From Xenorhabdus cabanillasii (lineage in GTDB: Bacteria > Pseudomonadota > Gammaproteobacteria > Enterobacterales > Enterobacteriaceae): a DNA stretch of 64,000 nucleotides. The notes below the pieces were generated by a model. It did no database searches. It was not told where the DNA came from and saw nothing but the letters and a program-made list of their open reading frames with translations. How positions within the stretch are numbered: position 1 is the stretch's first letter; every line of letters begins with the position of its first letter. The stretch covers positions 3,720,001-3,784,000 of the forward strand of contig NZ_QTUB01000001.1 in NCBI RefSeq assembly GCF_003386665.1, in the 5' to 3' direction. Position numbers and translations under genes: made by a program. Shown here piece by piece: positions 26,754 to 49,842 of this stretch.

Positions 26754-26840
26754 GCCCAGGTGGTGAAATCGGTAGACACAAGGGATTTAAAATCCCTCGG
26801 CCTTAAGGCTGTGCGGGTTCAAGTCCCGCCCTGGGCACCA
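26754..26840 (+). tRNA. leuZ: tRNA-Leu (UAA), bordering the phage island
   Basis: An 87-nt class II tRNA with long variable arm (CTCGGCCTTAAGGCTGTG), anticodon TAA in ATTTAAAAT, and encoded CCA. Its 3' end and the following terminator are repeated in inverted orientation at 49186-49272. The phage-derived island starts right after it, so it is the presumed integration site. Confidence 0.97.
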
Positions 26841-26910
26841 AATAAAAACTTTCTGGTAAAACAGTGAGTTAGGGAATAAAAAGAGCCACCGCAAGGTGGC
26901 TTTTTTCTTT
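26821..26910 (+). repeat. Long inverted repeat, left copy (tRNA-Leu 3' end plus terminator)
   Basis: About 90 bases from the T-arm of tRNA-Leu through its terminator match, in inverted orientation, 49186-49272. A central block of 33 bases (from the AAAACAGTGAG at 26858 to GAGCCACC at 26890) is identical in both. The two copies bracket the 22-kb phage tail region. A candidate attachment site, though att repeats of an integrated phage are normally direct. Confidence 0.8.
26884..26906 (+). terminator. Terminator of the tRNA operon
   Basis: AGCCACC pairs with GGTGGCT across a GCAA tetraloop-like spacer, followed by six T residues (26901-26906). It ends the Gly-Cys-Leu tRNA transcript. Confidence 0.85.
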
Positions 26911-27044
26911 GATAAAAATCACATTTCACTATTAGTTCACTATATCTTTTCACTATATTTTTTGACCTCCGGTTTAAGAACCCCATTCCCATTTCAAAAC
27001 CCCAAAGCTGCTAAAAATCTCCATATTTATAAGAAACCCACTAT

Positions 27045-27062
27045 CAGGGGCTATCGCCCCTG
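27045..27062 (-). terminator. Terminator of the left tail operon
   Basis: CAGGGGC (27045-27051) pairs with GCCCCTG (27056-27062) just beyond the stop codon of the tail fibre assembly gene; a modest T-rich stretch follows on the minus strand. Confidence 0.5.
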
Positions 27063-27065
27063 TCC

Positions 27066-27662
27066 TTACTTCGGCGGTTCCGGCCAGTGGATATCGGGGG
27101 CGGTGGAACAGTCTACGCGGTTGAGTAGCACACGGTATTTACGCCATGCCGTAAAGGCGGATTTCTCGGCCTCGATGGCCATGTCGAGGTCAATCGCGTC
27201 CTGTAATGGTGCGATAGCCATGTCTGCCTGCTGTCGCAGGAATGATTTTTGCTGTTCCGCTTGCCTGACCTGATCCGCCTGTAGTGCCAGTTTATCTGTT
27301 ACCCACCGCTTACCCTCCCATTTATCGAATGGGGTAGCGGGTGCATCTGGGGTTGTGCCCAATGGATAATCACCCAGGTCTTCAACGACTTGTGCTATCC
27401 CCGTTTCAGTGTTATATACCGTTTCACCACGGTGATCAGCAACGTATTCCCACGCGGATAAATCAGCCGTTCGGCAAATCGCATAACCGGCCTTACTTTC
27501 ACCCGGTGCATCCGCGCAAGAATGCGCCGGCAGCCCGACGCCGACCGGTAAGAATTCCACCGAGGTAGAAAAATATTCACGCGATTCGCTCGTGTAATTG
27601 TACACGGTGACATTACCCGCCACGATTGCGTTGAATTCGCTATTCAATACGGCTTGAGTCAT
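27066..27662 (-). CDS. Tail fibre assembly protein (Tfa family)
   Basis: A 198-residue cytoplasmic chaperone of the Caudovirales tail-fibre-assembly family. The hallmark C-terminal part is clear (long helix DQVRQAEQQKSFLRQQADMAIAPLQDAIDL, then KYRVLLNRVDCSTAPDIHWPEPPK). Tfa proteins help fold, and may stay bound to, the distal fibre. The gene abuts the fibre gene by a one-base overlap and closes the operon. Confidence 0.9.
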   Translation of the reverse strand: MTQAVLNSEFNAIVAGNVTVYNYTSESREYFSTSVEFLPVGVGLPAHSCADAPGESKAGYAICRTADLSAWEYVADHRGETVYNTETGIAQVVEDLGDYPLGTTPDAPATPFDKWEGKRWVTDKLALQADQVRQAEQQKSFLRQQADMAIAPLQDAIDLDMAIEAEKSAFTAWRKYRVLLNRVDCSTAPDIHWPEPPK

Positions 27663-28927
27663 TATATCGCCCTCACGATGTAGTTAAACGCGATGTTGCA
27701 GGGCGCAGTTTCGTTGCCCCCCTCTTCACTGATATAAAGGCCGCTGGAGCCTGCCGCAGCATAACTAACTGACGAGGCACTCTTTCGATATTCCTCATGA
27801 ACAGCCGGCGTGTCGTGGCCGTTTCCGTAACCAAAAAGCAAGCTGTGGCTATGTTTTTTCAGCGTGTCGGCTGAAAACGATAATAAGGGGCGCCCGGCAT
27901 CAATCAGTCCGTCATCACTCCATCCACGAATGAAAACGCCCCGCAAATCCGGCAACCTGAGTGAGGGGTAGACTTTTTCCAGCTCGGGGTATTGGCCGGC
28001 AACGAATGTGGAGCCGTTACATTTCAGCCATCCGGCCGGCGGGGTTTCTAAAGGCCACGGAACCGGCACCCCAACCGGCAGTACTGACCATGCCCCTAAA
28101 ACAATGTCATCGATTCTGGGTTTATTCACGGGACTGTAAACCCGCTTTCCTCCGGCTTCATAAATGCCGTTTGCGGAGATATAGCCGAATGCATCGACAT
28201 TGCCATTAACAACACCGCCCGTTTTCGGGTAGGCACCGACATTTTCCACAAAATGGGCTTTATTCTCAATGTCAGCGCCATTTGCGGATTTAGCCATCGC
28301 ATCTTGCGCCTGTTTCACGGTTTTCTCTAACCCGATATTTCTCACAAACGCCGCTTTATCCGGGATATCCGCCCCGTTCTGCGCTTTGTCGAGGCGGCGG
28401 CTGGCGTTGTCGTTGGCGGCCTTCACCGCTTTAGGCGTGGCGGCTTGTGCTTCATTGGGGCTGTCTGTCGCATTATTAAGCTGCACGATACCTTTTTGTG
28501 TGATTGACGCTTCGTTTATATGGATATTCGAGGCCAAATCGTAAACGGCTTTGACCGCCTTAGATGTCGCAGCGACGTTCTCCGCGTTACTGTCTGTGGC
28601 ATTACTCAATTTCGTAATACCGGCTGTGGTCAGTGACGCGGCAGGGACACTGGCGTTGATCGTTGTCCTTAGTGCATTGAGTAATCCAGCCTGTAGTGCC
28701 TGTAAGTTGCCATCATCCAGTACATCCTTATCTGTCGTCTCTGCAATAAACTGCGCCACCACCGTAGCGATGGCAGCGCTTTGCCGCCAGACTTTATTCA
28801 GTTCCTGCGACTTCGCCACCCCAGAACTGAACCCGTCTGTTCGGGCAGCCAGTTTGCTGTACTCGTCGTTGGTTAAGACGTTTGCCCCGTCTGCAATGCC
28901 AAAAGGCAGAAATTCATTTTTTGCCAT
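27662..28927 (-). CDS. Phage tail fibre protein
   Basis: A 421-residue fibre. Residues 1-120 hold the baseplate-attachment region; tandem collagen-like or helical repeats (GITKLSNATDSNAENVAATSKAVKAVYD and GIVQLNNATDSPNEAQAATPKAVKAAND) are the phage tail fibre repeat type; the tip contains a tail-collar domain (PPAGWLKCNGS, LPDLRGVFIRGW) and ends CNIAFNYIVRAI. It decides receptor binding. Start 28927 is supported by GAGGAAACT; a longer in-frame version would overlap the upstream gene. Confidence 0.9.
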   Translation of the reverse strand: MAKNEFLPFGIADGANVLTNDEYSKLAARTDGFSSGVAKSQELNKVWRQSAAIATVVAQFIAETTDKDVLDDGNLQALQAGLLNALRTTINASVPAASLTTAGITKLSNATDSNAENVAATSKAVKAVYDLASNIHINEASITQKGIVQLNNATDSPNEAQAATPKAVKAANDNASRRLDKAQNGADIPDKAAFVRNIGLEKTVKQAQDAMAKSANGADIENKAHFVENVGAYPKTGGVVNGNVDAFGYISANGIYEAGGKRVYSPVNKPRIDDIVLGAWSVLPVGVPVPWPLETPPAGWLKCNGSTFVAGQYPELEKVYPSLRLPDLRGVFIRGWSDDGLIDAGRPLLSFSADTLKKHSHSLLFGYGNGHDTPAVHEEYRKSASSVSYAAAGSSGLYISEEGGNETAPCNIAFNYIVRAI

Positions 28928-28934
28928 AGTTTCC

Positions 28935-29585
28935 TCATAGTCTGACGGCCCAGCCACCGGTATCAAAACCCGCAACCACGTCATGTTGAATGTCAAAGCC
29001 AAACAGCCCGTCACAGGCTGAATTAATGTAATTATTTACGCGTACCGCTTCCGGCTTGATGTTCAGATAACCCTGCCGGATAACGGCTTTAATGACTTCC
29101 GGGATAGCGCCTCCGGTCATAAACACATCCATGGTCATATTTTGGTTATCTACGAAAAACAGCGTGGTTTTACTGTCCGGTAATATCCGCTGATAAATCC
29201 GTTCCAGCATGTCACCGGATCCGTCCCAGTGATTGGCTTCAATTTTTACCCGCAGCAAGGTACGGTAAGTTTCGTCATCCAGTTCGGTAAACCCGCTGTC
29301 ACTGTCATATTTCCGTTTCCAGCTTCCCTGGTCGAATCCCACTGCCTCGGTATCCAGTGAAAAATACACCCCGACAATCGGCGTTTTCACATAGCGCGAT
29401 AGCCCTATCCATTCCCCGACTGCATCCAGTTGTACACCAACAGCCTTGTCCAGCGAGAACGCGTCATTAAGATGCAGGGCGGCCTGTGCAATGTCTGAGA
29501 ATATGCGGGTGATAAGATCAATATGGTTAACGAATTTCGGCGCGGTACGATGTTGCGGGGTGATGAGTGTTAAGTAGTCTCTCAT
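28935..29585 (-). CDS. DUF2612 baseplate/tail protein
   Basis: A 216-residue protein matching DUF2612, a tail protein found between the baseplate J protein and the tail fibre in contractile-tail phages (DYLTLITPQHRTAPKF, AVGVQLDAVGEWIGLSR, DDETYRTLLRVKI). By position it is the functional counterpart of gpI, linking the baseplate wedge to the fibre. It overlaps the preceding gene by four bases. Confidence 0.8.
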   Translation of the reverse strand: MRDYLTLITPQHRTAPKFVNHIDLITRIFSDIAQAALHLNDAFSLDKAVGVQLDAVGEWIGLSRYVKTPIVGVYFSLDTEAVGFDQGSWKRKYDSDSGFTELDDETYRTLLRVKIEANHWDGSGDMLERIYQRILPDSKTTLFFVDNQNMTMDVFMTGGAIPEVIKAVIRQGYLNIKPEAVRVNNYINSACDGLFGFDIQHDVVAGFDTGGWAVRL

Positions 29586-30769
29586 GTCACCACCAGTTTG
29601 ATGTTATCCGGCTGACAGGTCACTGCCTCGTTAAACCGGGTTTTCAGATTACCTGTCACCGCTGATCCCGCCGTGCGTCCGATGCGAATATCGGTAATAT
29701 CATAGGTCTTACCCTCTTCATCACCGGGTAAGTTGGCCGGGGTAAACAGCTTGGTCAGATACACACTGTCCCCGATATGTATCGCGTTAATGTGTTCGGC
29801 CACTGCGTTTTTAATCCGGTCTCCTACCAGCGTGGTGTAGCCATCAAAAGGCATCAGGTGAATTTCAATAAAAACAGCCACATCCACCGGACGGGAAAAA
29901 CGTATCGGATGGGGGATTTGGTGGCGGTCAGCCACTTTAATCACCGTGTCCCCGAACGTACCCCCACCGGGTGTTTTTTTTTAAGGCAATAGTCCTGGCG
30001 ATAGTCATTGCATCCCCGCCATCTACAATAATGGCGATAGTATGGCCGGGTATGCCGTATTCATTCGTCTGCCCGGTGTCATTTTCAAACCCCCTTAAGC
30101 GGGAAACACCGGGTATCAGGCTGATCGCCCCTAACATCCCATCCAGTACGGTACGTGAGGGCAGCGCCACCGATTTACGCTGACGTATCCGCAGTTCGGC
30201 ATCCGTCTCAATGGTACGTCCGGGTGTCGCCACAGAATGATTGATGACTTTCTGCCAGCCCCGTGTGGGTGTGCCTATCTCAGCAATATCCCCCACGGCT
30301 GCGGTAATAGATCCCTGAGTCTGGCAGGTAGCCGTGACGGTCGCTGTACCATGCGTGCCAATCGTGACCGTATCCGGCAACCGCCATGAATAACCCTGCA
30401 CATCGCGCACCATGCCCTTTTTGATGACCGTACCGACCTGACCGATAAGCTCCACATCACAGACCGATTGGGTTGAACGGTGCCGCGACATGCCATTAAT
30501 CGCGACATTGTTTGAGAGTGCCGCCCCTTCGCAGTTGACGGACTGAATGAGTTATAGGTGGCAATCAGCGCATTATTCGCGTCGTGAATCCCCATCGCGT
30601 AAATAGCAATCTGTTGTCCATCCTTGCTGTCTGGGCCAAGATACGCGTCTTCGCCGTAAATCTGGCGAAAATACCCGGTTAACTTCGTCAGTATCGTCGG
30701 ATAATCAGGCGCAGTAATGCCGCTCGCGGTAATTCTGGCCGCCAGCCCTAAAGTATCGAAATTAAGCAT
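29582..30769 (-). pseudogene. Baseplate J-like wedge protein, broken by two homopolymer frameshifts
   Basis: Three consecutive minus-strand frames together encode one J-like protein of about 395 residues. The N-terminal frame (from 30769, MLNFDTLGLAARI) is open to the shift at AAGGGGCGG near 30522; one more G restores KGAALSNNVAINGMSRHRSTQSVCDVELIG in the second frame. The second frame runs to an A9 tract (29974-29982 as T9 on plus), where one A fewer restores TPGGGTFGDTVIKVADRH in the third frame, ending 29582. As written no full protein can be made. Both lesions are single-base changes in homopolymers, so sequencing error or slippage-based expression are alternatives. Confidence 0.85.
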
Positions 30770-30772
30770 AAG

Positions 30773-31120
30773 TTACCGTTCGTTGATGACTGTGGTTCTG
30801 CCGTAGCGGGTGTTAAGCGTGGCGGTCAGGGTGATTTTCCGGGTCGTGGGGTTCCGTGTGGCATCAAGAGCAATAATTTCTGTCACCCCTTCAGTGCCTA
30901 AAATCCGCTCACGCAGCGCCATTGCACTGGTGTAGTTTTTTTCCAGTACGGCCTCCCGGTAGGGCGTCCCTTCCTCCACATCCAAAAACCAGTCCCCGCG
31001 CCATAAATCCAGCCGGGTCTTTACAGCCAGTGCGACGGCTTCCGGGGAATCAATCAGAAACGTGTTGTCGCCCTGACCGAAGCTGTAATCGCCGTCAATA
31101 TCTTCCCGTCGATATCGCAT
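30773..31120 (-). CDS. Baseplate wedge protein W-like (gp25 family)
   Basis: A 115-residue protein starting MRYRREDIDGDYSFGQGDNTFL with the GDWFLDVEEGTPYREAVL block typical of W/gp25-type baseplate proteins, which share a lysozyme-like fold and initiate the wedge and sheath contact. It abuts the spike gene at one base and precedes the J gene by three bases. Confidence 0.8.
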   Translation of the reverse strand: MRYRREDIDGDYSFGQGDNTFLIDSPEAVALAVKTRLDLWRGDWFLDVEEGTPYREAVLEKNYTSAMALRERILGTEGVTEIIALDATRNPTTRKITLTATLNTRYGRTTVINER

Positions 31121-31857
31121 TACTGCGGCCCTCCTGTGGTGCCCCCGCCTGTTTTAACGCCGCCGTGTGTGTGGTTCATCAGACTGATACCGCCTGCGGT
31201 GACATCATTTTTCACTTTCACCGGACCATTCATTGTTGCTTCACCCCCATTGGAACCCATACCTTGTGACAGGTTGCCGTTGAGTTCAATCTCAGGAGAG
31301 TTTATTTCAGTTCCTCCTCCTGCATTGACGATAAATTTACCCGGAGTGTTAAGCGTGATGTTATGGCTACCCGGCGTAAGTTCTATATAAGCCTCACCAT
31401 CATCCGTGCGCAGCTGGGCGGAATGGGTACTGATACCGCTAATTTTCTGTGCCTGTGATTGCGGGCCAACTATCGCAAAGCCATCTGATAAGTGATGCTG
31501 GCGCGGGTCTACCGGCTCCTGTATGCCGCCGTTCTGCCACCAGTAATCAATGCAGCGGTCAGCAAAAATCACCAGGCATTCATCACCCGGCTGAATAGGA
31601 AACGTCAGCGTCACCCCGCCACCGCGTGGGAAAATCACCGGCACATCCACCAGCAAAGGTAATGCGACTGATTCCGCTTCCCCCTGGCTGTTGGTAACTT
31701 TTCCGCGTATTGCAGGCTGCGCCGTCACCGTGATGGCTTCAGGATTAAAAGACTGGATAATGCACGGCACGGACACATATAAGCCTGAACTAATCGCCTC
31801 CTGTATCATCAGGAACGGCGTTTCAGGCTGGTTAAGACGTTCAAAGTTAGTGATCAT
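31120..31857 (-). CDS. Baseplate spike protein (Gp138 N-terminal domain type)
   Basis: A 245-residue protein with an N-terminal OB-fold-like domain (SVPCIIQSFNPEAITVTAQP, FPRGGGVTLTFPIQPGDECLVIFADRCIDYWW) of the Gp138 type, a beta-rich trunk, and a His-containing tip (MNHTHGGVKTGGG). Such spikes form the membrane-piercing tip of the contractile tail. The start 31857 overlaps the hub gene by ATGA, a coupled start. Confidence 0.8.
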   Translation of the reverse strand: MITNFERLNQPETPFLMIQEAISSGLYVSVPCIIQSFNPEAITVTAQPAIRGKVTNSQGEAESVALPLLVDVPVIFPRGGGVTLTFPIQPGDECLVIFADRCIDYWWQNGGIQEPVDPRQHHLSDGFAIVGPQSQAQKISGISTHSAQLRTDDGEAYIELTPGSHNITLNTPGKFIVNAGGGTEINSPEIELNGNLSQGMGSNGGEATMNGPVKVKNDVTAGGISLMNHTHGGVKTGGGTTGGPQ

Positions 31858-32795
31858 TGTCGGACATCCTTCGATAGTGCGGCCTGAGTCATTAAGGTCT
31901 GGTCTGATTTCGCCACACAAATCAGCTCCATGTAGTACATCTTTTCACGGGTATCCCCGAAGTAACTGACGTTGATCACCACGTAATCCCCGTCAGCATC
32001 GGTTGCAGCGGGAATTTCTATAGCCTCGTTACCCGATGCAATCGCCCCGGTGGATTTCCCGGCTTCATTAATCGAAGCGTTATCTAACCGGATTAAGGTC
32101 CCCGGCCGAATCCTGGGGTTAATCAGACACTTCACGTTAATCCCCGCGCCGATGGTCTGCTCCGGCATTCCGATGAGTCCGGTCTTATAATTCAGCACAA
32201 TCGCTTCGGTCAGATAGGTTTTCTTCGGGATAATATGGCACTGACCATCTTCATAGCGCCATTCAGCATTGTTCTGTCTGGCTAAAATATGCATTTCATC
32301 GCGGTGCATACCAAAGAACACCTTACCCCGTGGGGCCACGTTTAACTGAAACTCCGGGCGCATCCCGAACGTTATCCCGTACTTTTCAATCTCCCGCATC
32401 ATCAACCGGTCAACGTCCTGCTGGGTGTAACCGGCTGAGATAGTGATATTGACCGTCGCATCATTGTACGCCTGGTCACCGTCGCCAGCCTGTATCACCA
32501 CGTACGTATCCGTCGGACTGTCACGCCCGGTGTAGGTGTACTGGATTTGCCCGGCGAAGATTTGGCCTGAATGGTCTTTATATCTTGCCGAGAACTTTAT
32601 AATCCTGTATTCGTTCTTGCGGATCTTCTCCCGTGTCTCATTGTTCAGGTTGTAGATTTTGAAGATGCCGGTTGCCGGATAGGCAAAAGAAGGCCGGGTA
32701 ATACTGAATTTGATTTTCAATTCGGAAAGGTCAATACCCTCACCTTTCTCATCAGCGACAATCAGCCTGCATTCGCGAAGCCATTGTTTTGACAT
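31854..32795 (-). CDS. Baseplate hub protein
   Basis: A 313-residue tail protein (KQWLRECRLIVADEKGEGIDLSELKIKFSITR..., FKIYNLNNETREKIRKNEYRIIKFSARY) of the kind that forms the baseplate hub, equivalent to gpD/gp27, next to the spike. The assignment rests on position before the spike gene and on the domain pattern, with moderate certainty. Confidence 0.65.
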   Translation of the reverse strand: MSKQWLRECRLIVADEKGEGIDLSELKIKFSITRPSFAYPATGIFKIYNLNNETREKIRKNEYRIIKFSARYKDHSGQIFAGQIQYTYTGRDSPTDTYVVIQAGDGDQAYNDATVNITISAGYTQQDVDRLMMREIEKYGITFGMRPEFQLNVAPRGKVFFGMHRDEMHILARQNNAEWRYEDGQCHIIPKKTYLTEAIVLNYKTGLIGMPEQTIGAGINVKCLINPRIRPGTLIRLDNASINEAGKSTGAIASGNEAIEIPAATDADGDYVVINVSYFGDTREKMYYMELICVAKSDQTLMTQAALSKDVRQ

Positions 32796-32814
32796 AGTGA
32801 CTCCAGAAATGAAA

Positions 32815-32832
32815 AACCCGCCGAAGCGGGTT
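32815..32832 (-). terminator. Terminator behind relBE
   Basis: AACCCGC pairs with GCGGGTT around a CGAA loop; the minus strand continues with a short T run. It lies between the relE stop and the hub gene, so relBE has its own transcript end. Confidence 0.65.
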
Positions 32833-32848
32833 ATTATGAATTTGTGGC

Positions 32849-33145
32849 TTATCGTGTAATGCGCTCGCTGGCTACCTTATAAGCTTTCGAGTCTTCTCTT
32901 TTGCTTACTGCGATTACCCAGATCACAATCTCTTCATCTATCACCTGATAGACAAGGCGAAATCCAGAAGAGCGAAGTTTGATTTTAAAGCAGCCTGCTA
33001 AATCGCCGTGTAATCTGGCTGACTCGATATAGGGGTTATCCTGTAGTTTACGTAGCTTCTTTTTGAACTGCTCACGGACACTGTTATCCAGTTTTTGCCA
33101 TTCTTTTAGCGCACGCTCGTCAAACTCAATGTTAAATTTCATCAA
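32849..33145 (-). CDS. relE: RelE-family mRNA interferase toxin
   Basis: A 98-residue toxin of the RelE family (FNIEFDERALKEWQKLDNSVREQFKKKL, then LRSSGFRLVYQVIDEEIVIWVIAVSKREDSKAY). Such toxins cut mRNA in the ribosomal A site during stress. It overlaps the antitoxin gene by 14 bases. The pair sits as cargo inside the phage baseplate operon. Confidence 0.9.
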   Translation of the reverse strand: MMKFNIEFDERALKEWQKLDNSVREQFKKKLRKLQDNPYIESARLHGDLAGCFKIKLRSSGFRLVYQVIDEEIVIWVIAVSKREDSKAYKVASERITR

Positions 33146-33386
33146 GATTTACCCGAATTCGTTTAACGGGGTTTTTCAGGCGATCACGTACCACCTCCAG
33201 AATGTCCTCATCTTCATCATGTTCTGCGACCATCAGGGATATCTCAGCGAACGGTAGCTTTTCATTTTCTGCCACATAGCGCAGAAAAAGGCGCAACGCG
33301 TCGGAAGGGGATAAGTTCAGTTTATCAAATGCACGATACGCATTCTTCTTAAGTTCTTCATCCACTCTTATCTGAATTGTGCTCAT
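33132..33386 (-). CDS. relB: RelB/DinJ-family antitoxin
   Basis: An 84-residue antitoxin with an N-terminal ribbon-helix-helix (MSTIQIRVDEELKKNAYRAFDKLNLSPSDALRLFL) and an acidic C-terminus that would wrap the toxin. The start at 33386 is chosen because it begins the RHH strand; a long upstream extension in the same frame is not coding. It neutralises RelE and represses the operon. Confidence 0.9.
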   Translation of the reverse strand: MSTIQIRVDEELKKNAYRAFDKLNLSPSDALRLFLRYVAENEKLPFAEISLMVAEHDEDEDILEVVRDRLKNPVKRIRVNLDEI

Positions 33387-33398
33387 AGTCTCACCATA

Positions 33399-33419
33399 TG
33401 TAATTACACTTGTATTACA
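33399..33419. promoter_or_regulatory. Probable RelB operator
   Basis: A palindrome TGTAAT-N9-ATTACA lies 13-33 bases upstream of the relB start. Its position and symmetry fit an autoregulatory RHH operator. Confidence 0.6.
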
Positions 33420-33507
33420 TTGTACATTATTGCATCTATGGTGCAATGAGTTTTTACAAAAGTTTAGGTTCATCCCCGCACGCGCAGGGAACTTCCTTAT
33501 AATCACC

Positions 33508-33533
33508 AAAAAAAAGCCCCATTACAGGGGCTT
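33508..33533 (-). terminator. Terminator of the lipoprotein gene
   Basis: AAGCCCC (33514-33520) pairs with GGGGCTT (33527-33533); the minus strand continues with at least seven T residues. It lies just past the stop of the lipoprotein gene. Confidence 0.75.
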
Positions 33534-33544
33534 CTTTCACTAGC

Positions 33545-34549
33545 TTAAAGACTGAGACGGCCAGTTTCATTTAGGCTTTTTTGGTGAACCCTAGCCATAC
33601 CAGCCCAGTGAGAAAACATTATTTCATCCCTAAGGATGGACTGACTGGCAGTTATTTTCCATGCTAGCTTTGATATGTTAGGATCTCTTGCCGTTTCTAC
33701 CCAATCCTTAACTCCTGCAATAATTGCTCTCTTACACGCATTATCTATATCCACCCTTGTATATGCAGACACTTTTTCACATGACTTAGCTTGCTTAATC
33801 ACCGTATTTTTATACATATATGGGTAGAAAAACAAGGGACGACCGTAAATCGTGGGGTTTCCGTACTTCTCAGTTTTATTGCCATCCCGGTCTCTAATAT
33901 TATATTCTTCTAATTTAGCGTTGTTCAGTAACGCAATAGCGGCATTCACATACTCGTCGTTACTGTATGAAAATTCAATCGGTTGGGTATCTGGCAGTTT
34001 TGAGTTTTCCTCTATTTCCTGATTTTTCATCTCCATCAATCCAGTAACAAGATTATTCATCACCGGTATGATTTTTTCAGGATCATAATATATGGATTTA
34101 AATTTTTTATTGTCAGCCTTGTATGATTCAAGGAAATCCTGATTCCTCTTTTCCCTCATCTTTGACGCACCGGATTTAAGTAACCTTAGAACACAAGACG
34201 CCTCTCCCGTACATCCTGAATATAGGTTACTGAGTTTAATCAAGTAATACATACTATATAACCCCAAAGAAGCCTTTTGGGGGAAAGGAATTTCTTCGTT
34301 ACCTGTAATGAGGTTAGCAATATCATAACGGGTAATTTCATCACCTTTTAATTTCACCTTACCCCAATCTATTAATGATTTTCCTCCTGAAGCATGGGTA
34401 TCTTTATCTTCATTAAATATCGTAGCTACGGCTATCAGCGCATCTATATCCCTGCTATCTAAAGCTACTGGTCTTTCTATTTCTGGAGGGTTAAGTAACG
34501 TGCAACTGGAAATAAGCAGAAAAATTAAACAAAAAATAACATTCTTCAA
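33545..34549 (-). CDS. Prophage-borne lipoprotein of unknown function
   Basis: A 334-residue protein with a lipoprotein signal peptide (MKNVIFCLIFLLISSC, lipobox ISSC with Cys16). The mature part is mostly helical and includes several Cys (GCTGEASCVL, SCEKVSAY) but no recognised domain. With its own terminator and lower G+C than the tail genes it looks like a moron, a cargo gene expressed by the lysogen. It could alter the host envelope or exclude other phages; neither can be shown. Confidence 0.7.
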   Translation of the reverse strand: MKNVIFCLIFLLISSCTLLNPPEIERPVALDSRDIDALIAVATIFNEDKDTHASGGKSLIDWGKVKLKGDEITRYDIANLITGNEEIPFPQKASLGLYSMYYLIKLSNLYSGCTGEASCVLRLLKSGASKMREKRNQDFLESYKADNKKFKSIYYDPEKIIPVMNNLVTGLMEMKNQEIEENSKLPDTQPIEFSYSNDEYVNAAIALLNNAKLEEYNIRDRDGNKTEKYGNPTIYGRPLFFYPYMYKNTVIKQAKSCEKVSAYTRVDIDNACKRAIIAGVKDWVETARDPNISKLAWKITASQSILRDEIMFSHWAGMARVHQKSLNETGRLSL

Positions 34550-34574
34550 TTTAATAACCTCGCGTATTAACGAT

Positions 34575-38259: not shown

Positions 38260-38270
38260 GTGTTCCCCCG

Positions 38271-38714: not shown

Positions 38715-38718
38715 CGGA

Positions 38719-40185: not shown

Positions 40186-40190
40186 AGGGG

Positions 40191-41499: not shown

Positions 41500-42473
41500 T
41501 GGCCCATGGGTTGCGTGCCATTGCGGACCAGGCGAAACCCGTTACGGTTGTCGTGCGCGTGGCGCAGGGCAAAACGGAAGCCGAAACCACCACCAACCTG
41601 ATTGGCGGGGTCACCGACGAAGGCAAGAAAACCGGTATGCAGGCCCTGCTGGCCGCCCAAAGCCAGCTGGGCGTTAAACCGCGCATTCTCGGCGTACCGG
41701 GGCATGATAACCTGACGGTCGCCACCGCACTGGCGGGCATTGCCCAGCAACTGAAAGCGATGGCCTATGTCAGTGCCTACGGTTGCAAAACCGTGTCGCA
41801 GGCGATTAACTACCGTAAAAACTTTAACCAGCGTGAACTGATGCTGGTGTGGCCCGATTTTTTAAGCTGGGACAGCGTGACCAACCGCGAAGCGACGACC
41901 TATGCCACTGCCCGTGCATTGGGGCTGCGTGCCAGGATTGATGAAGAGAGCGGCTGGCATAAGACGCTGTCCAACGTCGGGGTCAATGGCGTGACCGGCC
42001 TGTCTGCCGATGTGTTCTGGGATTTGCAGGATGTGGCCACCGATGCCAACCTGCTCAACCAGAACGATGTTACCACCCTCATTCGCAAGAATGGCTTTCG
42101 CTTCTGGGGGTCGCGCACCTGCTCGGATGATAAACTGTTCCAGTTTGAAAGCTACACCCGCACCGCGCAGGTGCTGGCCGACACGATGGCCGAAGCCCAT
42201 ATGTGGGCGATTGATAAACCGCTCACGCCCTCACTGGTGCGTGACATTATCGAAGGCATCAATGCCAAGCTGCGCGAGCTGAAAGCCAACGGTTACCTGA
42301 TTGACGGTCAATGCTGGTATGACGACACCGTCAACAGCAAGGACACCCTGAAAGCCGGCAAGCTCTATATCGATTATGACTATACCCCCATCCCGCCACT
42401 GGAAAACCTGCTGCTGCGCCAGCGCATCACTGACCAGTACCTGATGGATTTCGCCAACCGGATTAACAGCTAA
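41490..42473 (+). pseudogene. P2 FI-like tail sheath protein, 5'-truncated
   Basis: The frame encodes about 327 residues matching gpFI of phage P2 from [24 protein letters not shown] to the end ([36 protein letters not shown]). P2 FI is about 396 residues, so roughly the first 70 are missing; a TGA at 41487-41489 stops the frame just before the match begins. A TTG at 41511 could start a truncated product. The deletion marks the junction with the left tail module. Confidence 0.85.
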
Positions 42474-42483
42474 GGAGTGCCCG

Positions 42484-42999
42484 ATGGCCCTGCCACGCAA
42501 ACTGAAATACCTCAACCTGTTTAACGACGGCCACAGTTATCTGGGTGTCGTGGAAGAACTGACCCTGCCGAAACTGGGCCGCAAACTGGAAGCCTACCGG
42601 GGCGGCGGCATGAACGGCGCGGCCCATGTCGATTTGGGGCTGGATGACGGCGCACTGGATGTGGAATTTACCCTGGGCGGCGTCGAAGCCCAGCTGTACA
42701 AGCAGTGGGGCATTGAAAAAGCCGACGGTATTCCGCTGCGCTTTAACGGCGCGTTCCAGCGGGATGATACCGGCGAGGTGATTGCGGTCGAAGTGGTGAT
42801 GCGTGGACGTTTCGCCGAATTTGACCCCGGCAGCTACAAGCAGGGGAATAACCCCCAGACCAAGGTCAGCGCCAAAAACACCTACTTTAAACTGACGTGG
42901 GACGGCGAGGTGCTGATTGAAATCGACACTATCAATATGGTGGAAATGGTCGGCGGCGTTGACCGTCTCGAAGCCCACCGCCGCGCCATTGGCCTTTAA
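42484..42999 (+). CDS. FII: Major tail tube protein (P2 FII-like)
   Basis: A 171-residue tube protein: MALPRKLKYLNLFNDGHSYLGVVEELTLPKL, VDLGLDDGALDVEFTLGG, TYFKLTWDGEVLIEIDTINMVEMVGGVDRL. It fits P2 gpFII in length and pattern. It lies ten bases after the sheath fragment. The P2-like genes are visibly richer in G+C than the core genome around them. Confidence 0.93.
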   Translation: MALPRKLKYLNLFNDGHSYLGVVEELTLPKLGRKLEAYRGGGMNGAAHVDLGLDDGALDVEFTLGGVEAQLYKQWGIEKADGIPLRFNGAFQRDDTGEVIAVEVVMRGRFAEFDPGSYKQGNNPQTKVSAKNTYFKLTWDGEVLIEIDTINMVEMVGGVDRLEAHRRAIGL

Positions 43000-43027
43000 C
43001 CCGACACCCTTGACAGGAATCTGAACC

Positions 43028-43345
43028 ATGACTGAACAAACCCCCGTTACCCAGACCGAACACGCCACCGTCACACTGGAAGCGCCGATTGCCCGTGGCG
43101 CAACCACCATTAGCGAGGTGATTGTCCGCAAACCCAACAGTGGTGCCCTGCGTGGTGTCCGTTTGCAGGCGCTGATGGAAATGGACGTCGATTCCATGAT
43201 GCTGGTACTGCCCCGCATCACCGCGCCCGCACTGACCAAAAATGACCTGTTGCTGATGGCCCCGGGCGACCTGATTAACCTGAGTGTCGAGGTGGTCAGT
43301 TTTTTGTTGCCGAAGTCGGTGAAAGCCGATTTCCCGACCCCTTAA
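43028..43345 (+). CDS. E: Tail assembly protein gpE
   Basis: A 105-residue protein matching P2 gpE (VTLEAPIARGATTISEVIVRKPNSGALRGVRLQALMEMDVDSMMLVLPRITAP). It is the short product of the E/E' pair of tail assembly chaperones and carries the T-TTT-TTG slippery heptamer at 43300-43306. Confidence 0.9.
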   Translation: MTEQTPVTQTEHATVTLEAPIARGATTISEVIVRKPNSGALRGVRLQALMEMDVDSMMLVLPRITAPALTKNDLLLMAPGDLINLSVEVVSFLLPKSVKADFPTP

Positions 43346-43476
43346 CCGTGGATGAACTGGTGGCGGACATTGCCACCGTGTTTCACTGGCCGCCGGCCGC
43401 CACAATAGCGATGTCCCTGCCCGAACTGCTTGAATGGCGTTACCGCGCCCTGACCCGGAGTGGTGCTGATGAGTGA
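43306..43476 (+). CDS. E': gpE' extension by -1 programmed frameshift
   Basis: A -1 shift at T-TTT-TTG (43300-43306) leads into an open frame reading VAEVGESRFPDPLTVDELVADIATVFHWPPAAT and IAMSLPELLEWRYRALTRSGADE, ending at TGA 43474-43476. This corresponds to the P2 E' extension both in content (FHWPP, MSL-EL-EWR-RAL-RSG) and in shift site. It overlaps the start of gene T. Confidence 0.9.
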   Translation, partial: VAEVGESRFPDPLTVDELVADIATVFHWPPAATIAMSLPELLEWRYRALTRSGADE

Positions 43477-46168
43477 CCGACAATTACGCCTGCAAGTCGT
43501 TCTGGGCGCCGTAGATAAACTGACCCGCCCGTTTCAGGGCGCGTCCGACGCCAATAAACGGCTGGCCGAGACCCTTAAACAGTCCCGTCAGCAGCTGCGC
43601 GATCTCAATCAGCAGGCGAGCAAAATTGACGGTTTTCGCAAAACCAAACAGGCGCTGACCCGTGCGCAGGACGCCTACCGCAACGCCACCGACCGGGTGG
43701 CCGCCTTAAGCCAGGTCATCAATGCCAGTAGTAACCCGACACAGGCCCAGCGCCGGGAGCTGCAACAGGCGATGCGGGCCGCCGGTCAGCTGAAGGACAA
43801 AACCCAGAGCTTAAGCCAGTCGCTGCAACGCCAGCGTGATGTGCTGAGCGCCAGCGGTATCTCCACCCGTAATCTGGGTGACGCCCAGCGACAGCTGAAC
43901 AGGGATATCAGCCGCACCACCCAGACCCTGCAACAACAGCAGCAGCAACTGGAACGGCTGAACCAGCAGCAACAACGCATGGCTGCCGCCAAAGCCCGCT
44001 ATCAGCAGATGAAAGACGTGCGCAACCAGATGGCTGGCACTGGGGCGACAGCGATTGCCACCGGGGTGGGCGCACTTTACAGTGCCAAACGGGTGATGCT
44101 GCCAGGCTATGATTTTGAAACCGGCATGTCCAAAGTGCAGGCGTTAACGCGGCTGGATAAAAATGCCCCCGAACTGAAACAGTTGCGTGAACAGGCTCGC
44201 CATCTGGGGGCAACAACGGCATTTACCGCCAATCAGGTGGCGCAGGGACAGAGTTTCTATGCGATGGCCGGGTTTAAACCCGGCCAGATCCGCGCGGCGA
44301 TGCCCGGTACACTGGCGATGTCATTGGCCGGGGATACCGATTTAGCCACCACGGCGGATATCGGCTCCAATATCCTGACCGGGTTTAAACTGAAATCCGA
44401 TGACATGGGCCGCGTCAGTGATGTGTTAGTGGGGGCGTTTACCCGCTCCAATACCAACCTGTCGATGCTGGGCGAAACCATGAAGTATGTCGCCCCCGTG
44501 GCGGCCGGATTGGGCGTCGATATTGAAACCGCCGCTGCGGCGACAGGTAAACTGGGGGATGCCGGTATTCAGGGCAGTATGGCAGGTACTGCCCTGCGAT
44601 CCATTCTGGGGCGACTGGCTGAGCCGCCCACCGCAGCCGCCAAGGCACTCAAGAAGCTGAGCATTCAAACCAAAGACGCGAAAGGTAACCTGCGTGCCCT
44701 GCCGGATATCCTGACCGAACTGAACGCCAAAACCGCCAAAATGGGCAATGCCCAGCGCGCCGGTATCTTTAAAGCGATTGCCGGGGAAGAGGCCTTTTCT
44801 GCCTTGTCAGTGCTGGCCGAACAGGCCGGTTCAGGGGCACTGCAAAAACTCACGCAGGAGCTGAAACAAGCGCAGGGGGAAGCCAAGAAGGTCGCGGATA
44901 CCATGACTGACAATCTGGACGGTGACCTGAAAGCCCTGTCATCGGCCTGGGACGATCTCGGTATTCAAATCTTTGGCGGTGTGGACAGCCCGTTGCGCGG
45001 AATTGCCAAACGCATTACCCGCATTATCAGCAAAACAGGCGAATGGATGAAAGCCAATCCCGAACTGACCAAAACCTTAACAATGGTTGGAATTGGGTTA
45101 GGCGTGATATTAACCGTATTTGGGGCCATTACACTGGCACTGGCGGCCTTCTTGGGGCCGTTAGCTATGGTGAAATTTGGCCTGAGTATACTGGGCATCA
45201 AGGGGGCGGGCAGCCTGAAATTACTCGGCGGTGCGTTTAAAATACTGGCGGGGGTGATACGCGGGACGACCGCGCTCATGATGGCAAACCCGATTCTGGC
45301 GATCCTCGGCATGATTGCGCTGGCTGCCTGGCTCATTTACGACAACTGGGACACACTGGTGCCGTGGTTTAAAAAACTCTGGGCGAGCATTTCCAGTTAC
45401 GTCTCTACCGCCTGGCAGAACATCAGGCAGACCCTCCTTAATAAATGGGAAGAAATCAAACAGGATACCCAAAACAAATGGGAGGGCATCAAAAAGGCCC
45501 TTGCCAATAAATGGGATGAGATTGTTGAAGACACCCAAAAACTGCCGGAAAAATTTAAGCAGTTCGGCACGGAGATCATCGACAAACTGATTGCCGGTAT
45601 CAAAGACAAATGGCAAGCCCTGAAACAAAGCATCGCCAATCTGGGCACGGAAATTAAGGATGCCATCACCCCAGATTTTATGAAAACGCAGGCCGAAAAG
45701 CCGGAAGTGAAAAAAGCACTGGATGCCTACAATGCAGCCGCCCACCCGGCAGCCGGCTTTTTCGGTGCCTTTGACCGGGGCGGCACTATTCCGGCGGGAA
45801 AATTCGGACTGGTGGGCGAACATGGCCCGGAGCTGATTAACGGCCCGGCGCGGGTCACCAGCCGCCGGCAAACAGCGACACTGGCGCGCATGGCCGCCGC
45901 TGCCCTGTCGATGGGTGCGGCTTCCACCGTCAGTGCTCAACCGCTGCATCCCTACAGCCTGCCGGCTGCCCAGTATCAAAACGCCGGGGTTACGGTCATT
46001 AATCAGCCGCAACGCCCTGAACGCCCCGTGTATGAAATCCATATTCACGCCACATCATCACAATCCGAGCAGGATATTGCCCGCGCGGTGGCCCGTGAGC
46101 TGGATCGCCGTGAACACCAGCAACGCGCCCGTGCCCGCAGTGCCTATGCCGACCGAGAGGAGTTTTAA
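43469..46168 (+). CDS. T: Tail tape measure protein (P2 gpT-like)
   Basis: An 899-residue tape measure starting MSDRQLRLQVVLGAVDKLTRPF, as in P2 gpT. Long coiled-coil stretches (43,500-44,000, Gln-rich repeats), the TP901-type domain with LGATTAFTANQVAQGQSFYAMAGF near 245-270, central membrane segments (TMVGIGLGVILTVFGAITLALAAFLGP), and repeated KWEEIKQ/KWEGIKK/KWDEIVE helices follow. The start at 43469 was preferred over an upstream GTG by homology. The length implies a tail of roughly P2 size. Confidence 0.92.
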   Translation: MSDRQLRLQVVLGAVDKLTRPFQGASDANKRLAETLKQSRQQLRDLNQQASKIDGFRKTKQALTRAQDAYRNATDRVAALSQVINASSNPTQAQRRELQQAMRAAGQLKDKTQSLSQSLQRQRDVLSASGISTRNLGDAQRQLNRDISRTTQTLQQQQQQLERLNQQQQRMAAAKARYQQMKDVRNQMAGTGATAIATGVGALYSAKRVMLPGYDFETGMSKVQALTRLDKNAPELKQLREQARHLGATTAFTANQVAQGQSFYAMAGFKPGQIRAAMPGTLAMSLAGDTDLATTADIGSNILTGFKLKSDDMGRVSDVLVGAFTRSNTNLSMLGETMKYVAPVAAGLGVDIETAAAATGKLGDAGIQGSMAGTALRSILGRLAEPPTAAAKALKKLSIQTKDAKGNLRALPDILTELNAKTAKMGNAQRAGIFKAIAGEEAFSALSVLAEQAGSGALQKLTQELKQAQGEAKKVADTMTDNLDGDLKALSSAWDDLGIQIFGGVDSPLRGIAKRITRIISKTGEWMKANPELTKTLTMVGIGLGVILTVFGAITLALAAFLGPLAMVKFGLSILGIKGAGSLKLLGGAFKILAGVIRGTTALMMANPILAILGMIALAAWLIYDNWDTLVPWFKKLWASISSYVSTAWQNIRQTLLNKWEEIKQDTQNKWEGIKKALANKWDEIVEDTQKLPEKFKQFGTEIIDKLIAGIKDKWQALKQSIANLGTEIKDAITPDFMKTQAEKPEVKKALDAYNAAAHPAAGFFGAFDRGGTIPAGKFGLVGEHGPELINGPARVTSRRQTATLARMAAAALSMGAASTVSAQPLHPYSLPAAQYQNAGVTVINQPQRPERPVYEIHIHATSSQSEQDIARAVARELDRREHQQRARARSAYADREEF

Positions 46169-46170
46169 TT

Positions 46171-46635
46171 ATGATGGCCGCCCTTGGCTTATTTGTGTTT
46201 ATGCTGAAAACCATCCCGTACCAGAGCCTGCAACACCAGCAATCGTGGCGCTATGGCTTCAATAACCGGATCGGTGCCCGCCCGGCTTTTCAGTTTATCG
46301 GGCCGGACAATGACACCATCACCTTATCAGGCTCGCTGTACCCGGAGATCACCGGTGGCCGCCTGTCCTTACTGGCGCTGCAACTGATGGCCGACAGCGG
46401 TAAGGCCTGGTCATTTCTGGACGGTCACGGCATGATTTACGGCATGTTTGTGATTGAAAGCCTTGATCAGACCAAAACTGAATTCTTTGCCGACGGAGCC
46501 GCGCGTAAAATTGACTTTACCGTCACCCTTAAGCGCGTGGATGAAAATCTGGGCGAGATGTTCGGGGATCTGAGCAACCAGTTAACTGAGATGAAAAACA
46601 GCGTGAGCGATAAACTCAGCGGAGTCTTCTCATGA
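46171..46635 (+). CDS. U: Tail protein gpU
   Basis: A 154-residue protein corresponding to P2 gpU (MAALGLFVFMLKTIPYQSLQHQQSWRYGFNNRIGARPAFQFIGPDNDTITLSG). It completes the tail end. It begins three bases after T and overlaps D by four bases. Confidence 0.92.
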   Translation: MMAALGLFVFMLKTIPYQSLQHQQSWRYGFNNRIGARPAFQFIGPDNDTITLSGSLYPEITGGRLSLLALQLMADSGKAWSFLDGHGMIYGMFVIESLDQTKTEFFADGAARKIDFTVTLKRVDENLGEMFGDLSNQLTEMKNSVSDKLSGVFS

Positions 46636-47735
46636 CGGGATTTTCCGTTCTGGACTGGGTGAGCGGCCAGCGCCAGACTCCGGTTTACGTGCTCAGTGCC
46701 GGTGATGAAAATATCAATACCCGTATCCAGAACCGGCTGATTGCCCTGACTCTGACAGATAACCGCGGCTTTGAGGCGGATCAGCTGGATATCGAACTGG
46801 ACGACAGCGACGGCCTGCTGGCCTTGCCGCGCCGGGGCATGGCGCTGTCCCTGCATCTGGGCTGGGCAGGGGAAACCCTGCACCACAAGGGCCAGTTTAT
46901 TATTGATGAAATTGAATACAGCGGCGCGCCGGATAAAATCACCCTGCGTGGCCGCAGTGCCGACTTTCGGGCGACGCTCAACCTCAGCCGTGAAATGTCG
47001 TATCACCAGAAAACCCTGAGTGACATCGTGCGTACCATTGCCCAGCGCAACAACCTGCAACCGGAAGTGGATAAGGCACTGGCAGCTGTCAGGCTGAGCC
47101 ATATTGACCAGACACAGGAATCCGACGGCAGTTTTCTCACCCGGCTGGCCAGACAGGAAGGGGCGATTGCCACCGTCAAGAACGGCACCCTGTTGTTTAT
47201 CCGGCAGGGACAAAATCAGGCCGCCAGTGGGCGCCCGTTACCACAGGTGAACCTGACTCGCCAGTCGGGGGATGGTTACCGGTTTTCACTGGCTGACCGT
47301 AGCGCCTATACCGGCGTCTCAGCCAGCTGGCTCAATACCCGTGAGCCACGGAAAAAAACACAGGTCACGGTGAATCGTAAACGGCGCAAAACCACGCCCC
47401 AAAAAAAGGAAGAAAAGCAGGGCGATTATCTGGCAGGCAGTGAGGGGAATGTGCTGGTGATGAAACACACCTACGCCAATAAAGCCAATGCCGAACGCGC
47501 CGCCAAAGCCGAATGGGAGAAAATCCAGCGCGGGGTGGCGTCGTTTTCGATTCAACTGGCCAAGGGCCGGCCGGAACTGTTCCCGGAAATGCCGGTCAGG
47601 GTCAGCGGCTTTAAACCGCAGATTGACGGCACAGACTGGACACTGGTCACCGTCACCCATACCTTAAATGACAGCGGATTAACCACCGCGTTAGAACTGG
47701 AAGTGAAAATCTCTGATGCTGACATGGGCGTCTGA
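46632..47735 (+). CDS. D: Late control / baseplate hub protein gpD
   Basis: A 367-residue protein corresponding to P2 gpD. It has the hub fold seen in VGR/gp27-like proteins (QRQTPVYVLSAGDENINTRIQNRLIALTLTDNRGFEADQLDIELDD, FIIDEIEYSGAPDKITLRGRSADF, LVTVTHTLNDSGLTTALELEV). It is the last tail gene of the P2-like operon and precedes the ogr homolog, as in P2. Confidence 0.93.
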   Translation: MTGFSVLDWVSGQRQTPVYVLSAGDENINTRIQNRLIALTLTDNRGFEADQLDIELDDSDGLLALPRRGMALSLHLGWAGETLHHKGQFIIDEIEYSGAPDKITLRGRSADFRATLNLSREMSYHQKTLSDIVRTIAQRNNLQPEVDKALAAVRLSHIDQTQESDGSFLTRLARQEGAIATVKNGTLLFIRQGQNQAASGRPLPQVNLTRQSGDGYRFSLADRSAYTGVSASWLNTREPRKKTQVTVNRKRRKTTPQKKEEKQGDYLAGSEGNVLVMKHTYANKANAERAAKAEWEKIQRGVASFSIQLAKGRPELFPEMPVRVSGFKPQIDGTDWTLVTVTHTLNDSGLTTALELEVKISDADMGV

Positions 47736-47801
47736 TCTGCTATAATCGCGCCATCGCCTAACATAGCTGGCGCTTTCCTGATAATTAGAGGTACTCACAT
47801 T

Positions 47802-48029: not shown

Positions 48030-48036
48030 GATAATC

Positions 48037-48060: not shown

Positions 48061-48215
48061 TATTGTCATTCTATCCATTCAAAGAGTTATCCGAATTTTA
48101 CCCCATCATTAAGTTTGTTCTCTTTGAAAGCAACATTGCTGTTTTAGATTCCCGTGCTAATATGACAACACAAATGACAACATTTTTTGCAGCAGAGTGA
48201 ACTAAGGGAGGATGA

Positions 48216-48494
48216 ATGGAGACGATTCATTTTCGTATTGATGAAGAAACCAAGCGCTTAGCCATGCAAGCGGCTAAACGCCATCAGACAGACCTGACAA
48301 AGTTAATGAGACAAAAAGCCGAAGAATTGGCGAATGAAGAACGTGAGTATCAAAAAAATACCCATGCTTACTGGTTAGAAGCGGAAATTGAAAAAGCCAT
48401 TGACCGATGTGAAAACGGGGCGGTTTATTTTATTGATGATGCTGAAAGTCAGCGCCGGATGGCTCTGCTGCGTAATAAGCTGAGCAGGGGATAA
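48216..48494 (+). CDS. RelB/StbD-like antitoxin
   Basis: A 92-residue protein opening METIHFRIDEETKRLAMQAAKRHQTDLTKLMRQKAEEL, a ribbon-helix-helix DNA-binding start, followed by an acidic C-terminus. AGGGAGG precedes its ATG. With the gene one base downstream it forms a toxin-antitoxin pair that would stabilise the island. Confidence 0.85.
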   Translation: METIHFRIDEETKRLAMQAAKRHQTDLTKLMRQKAEELANEEREYQKNTHAYWLEAEIEKAIDRCENGAVYFIDDAESQRRMALLRNKLSRG

Positions 48495-48495
48495 A

Positions 48496-48801
48496 GTGAT
48501 AACGATTTCATGGGAAGAAACCGCGCAAACTGACCGGGAGCAAATTTATCTCTACTTCTTTGAGCAGGCAGGGCTGTTATTGGCTGATGAAATTGACGCA
48601 AAGTTCGTGGAAATGGCTGAACTTCTGAGAGTAACCCCGTATGCAGGCATAAAGGTTCGTAACAGCCCGGATGAGCGTTATAGAAAACTCGTAGTCCCTC
48701 ATTTTCCCTTTATCGTGCTCTACCGTTACGATGAGGATATGGAAAATATAAAGATCCTCAGGATATTGCACACCGCCAGAAGAATAGCCGGGCTTTTCTG
48801 A
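48496..48801 (+). CDS. RelE/ParE-superfamily toxin
   Basis: A 101-residue protein (ITISWEETAQTDREQIYLYFFEQAGLLLADEID, YRKLVVPHFPFIVLYRYDEDMENIKILRILHTARRI) of the ParE/RelE fold. The HTARR ending is typical of ParE-like toxins, which act on gyrase, but RelE-type RNase activity cannot be excluded. The start is GTG at 48496, directly after the antitoxin stop. Confidence 0.85.
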   Translation: MITISWEETAQTDREQIYLYFFEQAGLLLADEIDAKFVEMAELLRVTPYAGIKVRNSPDERYRKLVVPHFPFIVLYRYDEDMENIKILRILHTARRIAGLF

Positions 48802-48828
48802 GTAAAAAATTTCTTCCTGATTTTGAGG

Positions 48829-48864
48829 AAACCCCAGCCAGATAAAAACTGACAGGGGTTTTTG
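48829..48864 (+). terminator. Terminator of the toxin-antitoxin pair
   Basis: AAACCCC (48829-48835) pairs with GGGGTTT (48855-48861), followed by T residues. It sits about 28 bases after the toxin stop codon. Confidence 0.6.
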
Positions 48865-49842
48865 TTTATTTGGGTTGGTTAACTCAGCAAAGAATGGGTT
48901 TAAAACCTTTCGTGGCACTATCACTTTCCAGTTTACTGACGCGGAAAATTATTTTTGCATCGCCACTTCATCGCCATTTTTTGTTTTTACGGCTTAGTAA
49001 TTGCGCTGAACAATAATTATTCACAAAGAATGCTTTTTTATTCACTGAAAATATTTTTAAAAAATAGAAAAGTCAGGCTTTAGCAGGGGGTAAAAAGCGG
49101 GATAAATGATATTGGATAAATAACCAGTGGTGCCGAGGTGCTGCCAATCTGTTGTCAATTTTGAATTTTCGTGCAATTTAAACCCAAGAAAAAAGCCACC
49201 CGAAGGTGGCTCTTTTTATTCCCTAACTCACTGTTTTATCAGTCAGTTTTAACTTGGTGCAGGGCGGGACTAGTAAGTTAAGTTAATCAATTGAATTAGT
49301 TGGATTTATTTTTACTTATTCATTTTATGCCCCTTTTTGTGCCCCTTGTTTCTTCTTGGCTATCTATTTGATTTTAAAAATTTTTTAGGGTAATAAAAAC
49401 AACGCCTACAGCATATAGGTTCTGTTATGGTAGTAATTCAATATGTGATGCCTAGCTAATCGCAATTATCCTGTCAATTCTAATTTAACGATGTAATCGG
49501 TTCTGACTGTTTGTTCTAACCCACCTATATCCCATGCCAGTTAGAGCAAATGCTTATACATCTCCTGTTCATATCATTTTTATTTATAAAAAGTTATTCA
49601 AGATTTGAACGTAAATGTTAACATAGTTCGAAAACTGCATTATCAATGTAGATAAACTGTACTCACTGGAATAAAATTTATCAAAGTATCTAAATTATCT
49701 TCAAATACATAGAGGGTTTATTATAATCGCCCTTAAGAGGCAAAACTGGCTTCATAACCAAGATTGAATAAATAGCGATTTACAAAGTGTTTTGTATTAG
49801 CGATACAGACCACCACTAAAAACTACCAAAAAAGGTCGGATA
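48865..49842. other. Gene-free island boundary
   Basis: Nearly 1 kb without a convincing gene. It contains the inverted copy of the tRNA-Leu end (49186-49272) and, to its right, AT-rich DNA leading to the DUF262 gene. No integrase gene or fragment was seen near this boundary. Confidence 0.5.
49186..49272 (-). repeat. Long inverted repeat, right copy (tRNA-Leu 3' end plus terminator)
   Basis: The reverse complement reads from AGTCCCGCCCTGCACCA (the tRNA-Leu T-stem, acceptor and CCA with two G bases lost) through AAAACAGTGAGTTAGGG and the AGCCACC/GGTGGCT terminator hairpin with its T run. It mirrors 26821-26910. The tRNA part is too short to be a gene. Confidence 0.8.

Follow-up and report, generated by a model that had tools for sequence, protein, structure and literature searches.

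An attachment scar facing its own tRNA-Leu gene in Xenorhabdus cabanillasii: the likely right end of a P4-like satellite, probably turned around by IS3-family recombination

In the genome of Xenorhabdus cabanillasii the tRNA-Leu(UAA) gene is faced by an inverted copy of its own 3' end. We analyzed the pair in a window of 64,000 nucleotides (positions 3720001-3784000 of a genome of 4,335,622 bases in one contig; the window is this whole stretch, and window positions are counted from its first base). The inverted copy has the signature of a P4-like right-end scar and lies beside a normally polarised P2-like tail operon. We propose, with moderate confidence, that scar and operon were turned together to face tRNA-Leu by recombination between insertion sequences (IS) of the IS3 family, over a block of ~12 kb (about 41490-53715). 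The anatomy of the locus comprises the scar signature, the D-to-scar polarity, a truncated FI gene, a head-on joint between two tail clusters, an IS at the right edge of the block and an inverted stretch of 14 nt at its left edge. The features concerned are the following (relatives are denoted by codes; G000 is X. cabanillasii and G004 is X. stockiae DSM 17904).

26754..26840, plus strand: tRNA-Leu(UAA) gene (ARAGORN), the final gene of the Gly-Cys-Leu tRNA cluster that follows uvrC and pgsA
26822..26909, plus strand: first attachment (att) copy, consisting of the last 19 nt of the tRNA, a spacer and the terminator
27066..41490, minus strand: tail cluster T (PHROGs; tblastn against G001, 782-796 kb)
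41487..41500: joint between cluster T and FI, TGAAGTGGCACACT, equal to an IS3-family terminal repeat
41493..47735, plus strand: P2-like tail operon FI'(N-terminus lost)-FII-E-T-U-D (PHROGs, tblastn)
49186..49271, minus strand: second att copy, likely the attR-type right-end scar of a P4-like satellite, CTAGTCCCGCC, facing tRNA-Leu
49272..53715: putative satellite right end (Pfam, PADLOC, blastn to relatives)
53716..54959, plus strand: full IS3-family copy bounding the block on the right, with ATC outside and GGG on the block side

A local alignment of 26822-26909 (plus) with 49271-49186 (minus) covers 88 nt at 87.5% identity, interrupted by a single gap of 2 nt (E 5e-26 for blastn within the 64-kb window), and spans the tRNA 3' end (19 nt in the first copy, 17 in the second), the spacer and the terminator. 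This bears out a preliminary description of the stretch, in which the tRNA-Leu end and terminator were said to recur as a reverse complement; the long identical core given there as 33 bases is present, its length being 34 nt by manual count. The match exceeds a common terminator hairpin: in its extended form (query positions 69-156) it occurs at only three places in the whole genome, namely tRNA-Leu itself, the window copy (3769186-3769271, minus) and a third copy outside the window (3947685-3947771, minus), ~178 kb from the window copy and parallel to it. Since the latter two lie on the same strand, they form a direct pair, each member of which has the opposite orientation to tRNA-Leu. A search for the tRNA-Leu end in 40 relatives and the genome itself gave matches in 41/41, the numbers of copies per relative being lower bounds.

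The tRNA-Leu loci of relatives indicate that this gene is the integration site of several element types across the genus. Comparing att boundaries in 39 blast rows from the fetched tRNA-Leu loci, we found two kinds of tRNA-Leu end: full genes or ends with about 55-57 nt of tRNA, versus scars, with mostly 17-18 nt of tRNA preceded by a CTAG-ending sequence, CTAGTCCCGCC. This boundary was present in 9 copies in 8 genomes (twice in G000, and in G001, G004, G006, G007, G013, G014 and G018), and both extra copies in X. cabanillasii begin with it. Relatives show what such a scar belongs to. In G001, a 16-kb element runs from a tRNA-Leu end at 830353 to a scar at 846516, both on the plus strand and hence a direct pair, with a P4-type integrase of 420 aa (domains Arm-DNA-bind_3, Phage_int_M and Phage_integrase) beside the tRNA end; all three tRNA-Leu end copies downstream of the G001 tRNA-Leu are on the plus strand, like the tRNA. 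The element ends in G014 (148947 and 124862, both minus) are likewise a direct pair. Together with the 57-nt repeats of X. stockiae described below, these loci agree with the preliminary statement that integrase-made att copies are direct repeats.

We therefore consider the window scar to be likely the right end of a satellite, its P4-like character being suggested by the boundary signature and by these counterparts. The window remnant consists of the right end only, with no integrase and no direct partner copy. Our family searches (Pfam, PHROGs, NCBIfam, PADLOC) covered selected proteins, at most 10 per search, and not every open reading frame of the window; among the scanned proteins of the remnant we saw no P4-family primase-helicase. 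The island behind the third copy encodes an 814-aa protein with the P4-type primase domains Zn-ribbon, Toprim and D5 (TIGR01613 at 105.5 bits, just below the cut-off of 108.7).

The operon FI-FII-E-T-U-D adjoins the scar, with 1.45 kb and two small genes between the end of D and the att copy. In relatives, tblastn identity is 87-90% for FI (six loci) and 77-83% for D (eight loci), with just 49% for the D-like gene of G001. An undisturbed counterpart is found in X. stockiae, where a P2-like prophage occupies tRNA-Leu between direct repeats of 57 nt (76182-76238 and 110120-110176, 100% identical, both plus). The order there is tRNA-Leu, D operon, baseplate, capsid, scaffold, portal, terminase, gpA and, at the far end, a 333-aa integrase; a 424-aa integrase of the Arm-DNA-bind_3 type follows the prophage. 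We compared 364 kb of G000 around the window with 92-300 kb from each of seven relatives, and in these 364 kb no match appeared to the capsid, terminase and integrase frames of the G001 and G004 prophages, nor to the gpA frame of the G004 prophage. Judged by its gene content, the window operon is a prophage remnant.

The polarity of D was assessed in the best 80 of 178 confirmed loci encoding a D relative, all 80 of which were scanned for tRNAs. A tRNA lay within 2.5 kb beyond D in 22 of the 80, and in 22/22 it faced D (12 tRNA-Leu, 10 tRNA-Met); the other 58 had no tRNA within 2.5 kb beyond D, and 2 of the 80 loci end less than 1 kb from D. The relation of D to the scar in the window is thus normal, as in relatives, and what departs from the norm is the side from which the two face tRNA-Leu. 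Reversed integration is unnecessary to explain the inverted copy, and the second integration in opposite orientation suggested earlier finds no support, the scar-to-phage polarity being the usual one.

The interval between tRNA-Leu and the scar had been described as a phage island bracketed by the two copies. It is not one prophage but a pair of different tail clusters, which meet head-on at about 41490. From tRNA-Leu to about that point all listed genes are on the minus strand and form cluster T (tail-fibre assembly, tail fibre, baseplate hub, a tape measure of 727 aa, a sheath of 488 aa and others), whose counterpart lies at 782-796 kb in G001 and whose last gene is cut at the joint. Similarity to G001 ends at 41475 for DNA and at about 41486-41490 for protein, and similarity of FI to six relatives begins at 41493; FI has lost about 64 codons, and the T gene about 50. 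Mid cluster T, a 334-aa protein (33545-34549) had no match in PHROGs, Pfam or, by tblastn, the G001 cluster. In G006, the best-scoring relative for the tRNA region among the matches listed, a tail-fibre assembly gene also stands behind tRNA-Leu, with an N gap just beyond.

Across the joint the sequence reads GGCGATC, then TGAAGTGGCACACT, then GGCCCATGGG. The 364 kb contain three copies of the IS: two have this 14-mer at their ends, the third differs from it at one base, and apart from these ends and the joint the exact 14-mer is absent. The IS (transposase NF033516, 200 bits, cut-off 160) has inverted ends beginning with TG, TGAAGTGG, and is present in four copies at 99-100% identity in the genome, three of them within 3.77-3.96 Mb. 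At 53716 the satellite remnant gives way to one full copy, whose ends have the opposite orientation to the IS end at the joint. None of the three copies that we read has a target-site duplication (GGG/ATC in the window; GTG/CAT and GCT/ATT at the others), as expected if flanks had been exchanged. At the joint position, the FI genes of six aligned relatives read GGCACGCT in X. stockiae and a GGNACNYT-like sequence in the others. The part GGCACACT may thus be FI sequence, leaving just 6-7 of the 14 nt unexplained; for TGAAGT and one further base, the probability of a chance match is about 1e-4 (a conservative, post hoc figure).

These observations suggest the following course, in which both the role of the IS copies as cause and the order of steps are inferred. 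One IS copy would have landed in the sheath gene FI and another in the satellite or beside cluster T; recombination between them would have turned the 12-kb block; and the left IS would later have been mostly lost. The inverted copy does call for a rearrangement, and the earlier suggestion of an inversion between prophages at like sites is retained in part, as two tail clusters are joined head-on in the window; the breakpoint lies outside the tRNA-end copies. Several points weigh against the turned block. The body of the IS is absent at the left edge, where an IS is indicated by 14 nt, half of which may be phage sequence. The flanking bases (GGG/ATC at the right IS, ATC on the T side) fail to settle a simple inversion; the ATC present at either outer side would agree with insertion of the entire block. 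We did not find the reciprocal joint, and the single FI N-terminus that came to light is that of a different P2-like cluster, at 2297879. Finally, cluster T is itself reversed with respect to its G001 counterpart, which turning the block leaves unexplained.

The strongest competitor, which we hold to be rather unlikely, is illegitimate recombination between the tail clusters without any IS, with the left breakpoint at about 41490 and the IS at 53716 as a bystander. The joint is indeed precise between two genes without similarity, and since this mobile region harbours three of the genome's four full IS copies, an IS near a breakpoint is unsurprising. However, TGAAGT with the adjoining GGCACACT at the joint equals the IS end, and the satellite remnant ends where the IS begins. 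We find it distinctly unlikely that a composite transposon (IS, FI' to D, scar, cargo, IS) moved into cluster T, so that the orientation of the scar would be accidental. Such a move would account for the two inverted IS ends and for the agreement of the outermost three bases (ATC before the IS end at 41487 and ATC after 54959), but three bases agree by chance in about 1 in 64 cases, and to the right of the IS (after 54959) neither DNA nor protein comparison shows a continuation of the interrupted T gene.

The inverted copies might also act as a switch: recombination in the 34-nt core would flip the tail block of 22.4 kb and thereby place cluster T or the D operon next to tRNA-Leu. Once flipped, the locus would have the tRNA-Leu/D joint known from X. 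stockiae and other Xenorhabdus, and all four pairings of left and right neighbours of the core already exist across the genus, both neighbours behind the core being present after tRNA ends and after scars alike. Tandem integration alone suffices to explain these mixed neighbours, flipping not being required, and no recombinase was among the selected proteins scanned between the two copies. We consider such a switch very unlikely. As recombination between inverted copies leaves them inverted, the flip cannot in any case have produced the pair. An assembly error at the 88-nt repeats fails as an explanation on the same ground. The region does contain many repeats, and a short-read assembly could be misled by the IS copies at 53716, 3944229 and 3953718; against this, the genome is one contig and the T/FI joint is not within a long repeat, so that we give an error that inverted the segment only a slight chance.

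That an integrase set the element down in opposite orientation beside the tRNA gene is scarcely credible: tyrosine recombinases can act on inverted tRNA-Leu copies, as Int-pTN3 does in vitro, inverting the DNA between them (PMC5495485), and an intact integrase of the same broad type (only 45% identical) lies at 2069618-2070793, but the D-to-scar polarity is the usual one, the scanned proteins between the copies include no integrase, the prophage integrases of G001 and G004 are unmatched in the 364 kb as noted, and the gene of this genome that comes closest to the tRNA-Leu satellite integrase is interrupted by a stop (74% over residues 1-169). The other 14 genome matches to the tRNA-Leu satellite integrase are 29-58% identical, the three longest 38-45%, with the one at 2069618 intact.

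Further features of the block and its surroundings are these.

26924..26963, plus strand: TTCACTAT-type repeats behind the terminator (from the sequence), also behind the terminator in G013 and G006
48216..48801, plus strand: two small genes between D and the scar (NCBIfam matches below cut-offs; tblastn)
49843-50724: GmrSD-like gene (Pfam and PADLOC match)
50947-51696: HEPN gene (Pfam; no PADLOC match)
51747-53015: N6-methylase-like gene (Pfam and PADLOC match)
53300-53715: segment conserved in the satellites of relatives (blastn)
61342..61471, minus strand: remnant of a related IS (130 nt, 86%), adjoining the flank syntenic in relatives (edge of flank L)

The TTCACTAT-type repeats are likely integrase arm sites. 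Of the two small genes, the first is weakly RelB/ParD-like and the second weakly resembles a PHROG labelled toxin; in G007 the same pair follows a scar (90-92% identity). The cargo of the satellite right end is likely to consist of defence genes. Two IS110-family transposases (56614-57636 and 59179-60003) lie between the block and flank L. Relatives of IS110 include known invertases, and these two transposases may have had a role in the rearrangement.

Upstream of the tRNA cluster, uvrC and a pgsA-type transferase were assigned by Pfam. In G013, G014, G001 and G023 the order is flank L (3793-3781 kb in G000), uvrC-pgsA-tRNA-Leu and islands, with flank R (3740-3718 kb) coming next in two of them, G013 and G014, at a distance of 66-96 kb behind the tRNA. 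In G000, G004 and G006 uvrC adjoins flank R instead, and G016 has neither arrangement. It is likely that the uvrC-pgsA-tRNA block was turned relative to its flanks in the lineage of G000, G004 and G006, and that this inversion is older than the reversal of 41490-53715 and separate from it. The two events appear to be distinct because the first element of G004 is still in the normal direction. G000 is not alone in having inverted copies, as G006 has a scar 87 kb upstream that is inverted (90614-90743); G006 also has a second tRNA-Leu end with a satellite integrase, 0.9 kb behind tRNA-Leu and across an N gap (C46:2203-3352).

The third copy does not mark the far end of a 178-kb island. The interval between the parallel copies holds core genes (flhA-type, a tRNA-Asn cluster and others) and is chromosome, and the far copy lies inside a tRNA-Ser island (3920694-3966291; L046-L049), bounded by tRNA-Ser from 3966204 with an adjoining 404-aa integrase and by an end copy at 3920694-3920740. 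Within it (L048:3685-3771) the satellite scar is followed by a D-gene fragment, and the island seems to combine a tRNA-Ser element with the end of a tRNA-Leu satellite. Nearby (L048:4252-6450) is a 732-aa AAA_13 protein that matches the PADLOC candidate family PDC-S06 (772 bits). For the far copy, a simple inversion through homologous recombination of a tRNA-Ser satellite with a tRNA-Leu satellite is unsupported, the intervening genes having, relative to the outer flanks, the order and orientation of G013, G014 and G001. A relative of the tRNA-Leu satellite with a broken integrase is also present at 3842.9-3871.5 kb (L042-L044). We rejected it as a piece of the tRNA-Leu array, as it lies inside a tail-fibre gene and has only tRNA-like ends; its end cores resemble the tRNA-Leu 3' end, and it looks like a case of secondary-site use.

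Our literature search, partial in depth, turned up no published description of the X. cabanillasii tRNA-Leu locus, which is a new instance of processes already described. P4 satellites are reported to have a hotspot between psu and int (PMC8628076). As in that system, a P2-like prophage and P4-like satellites share a tRNA-Leu site, with likely defence genes at the satellite right end; unlike there, the array is broken up and one satellite right end is turned toward the tRNA. The cargo in the window fits that reported for P4 in part, the GmrSD-like and methylase-like genes matching PADLOC and HEPN matching Pfam only. In S. pneumoniae, prophage and host copies of lytA rearrange, and integrase-independent chromosome rearrangement has been proposed (PMC8637289). 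In both cases prophage sequence makes inverted repeats with a host gene; there the repeats recombine, whereas in our case the joint bears an IS-like end and the tRNA-end copies were probably moved as passengers. The integrase-made chromosome inversions at tRNA genes of Thermococcus (PMC5495485) share with our locus the inverted tRNA-Leu copies and the large inversions, but no intact integrase close to the tRNA-Leu satellite type was found in G000, and the breakpoint is outside the tRNA copy.

Xenorhabdus uses phage tails as weapons, and its xenorhabdicin tailocin loci show inversions between close relatives in tail-fibre segments, none of these loci being reported to hold a DNA invertase gene (PMC13280938). 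The likeness consists in Xenorhabdus phage-tail genes that differ in orientation among close relatives. In contrast to the tailocin loci, a serine-recombinase-like gene lies 155 bp ahead of FI in the P2-like locus at tRNA-Leu of G022 (matches below curated cut-offs); from this gene and the other P2-like FI at 2297879, the window operon is probably distinct from the tailocin locus. The lesson for inverted att pairs is that the element and polarity of each copy should be identified first, and an integrase considered only afterwards. Set beside these systems, the tRNA-Leu gene appears as a hub at which phage, likely satellites and IS elements have been reshuffled into broken tail clusters and likely defence cargo.

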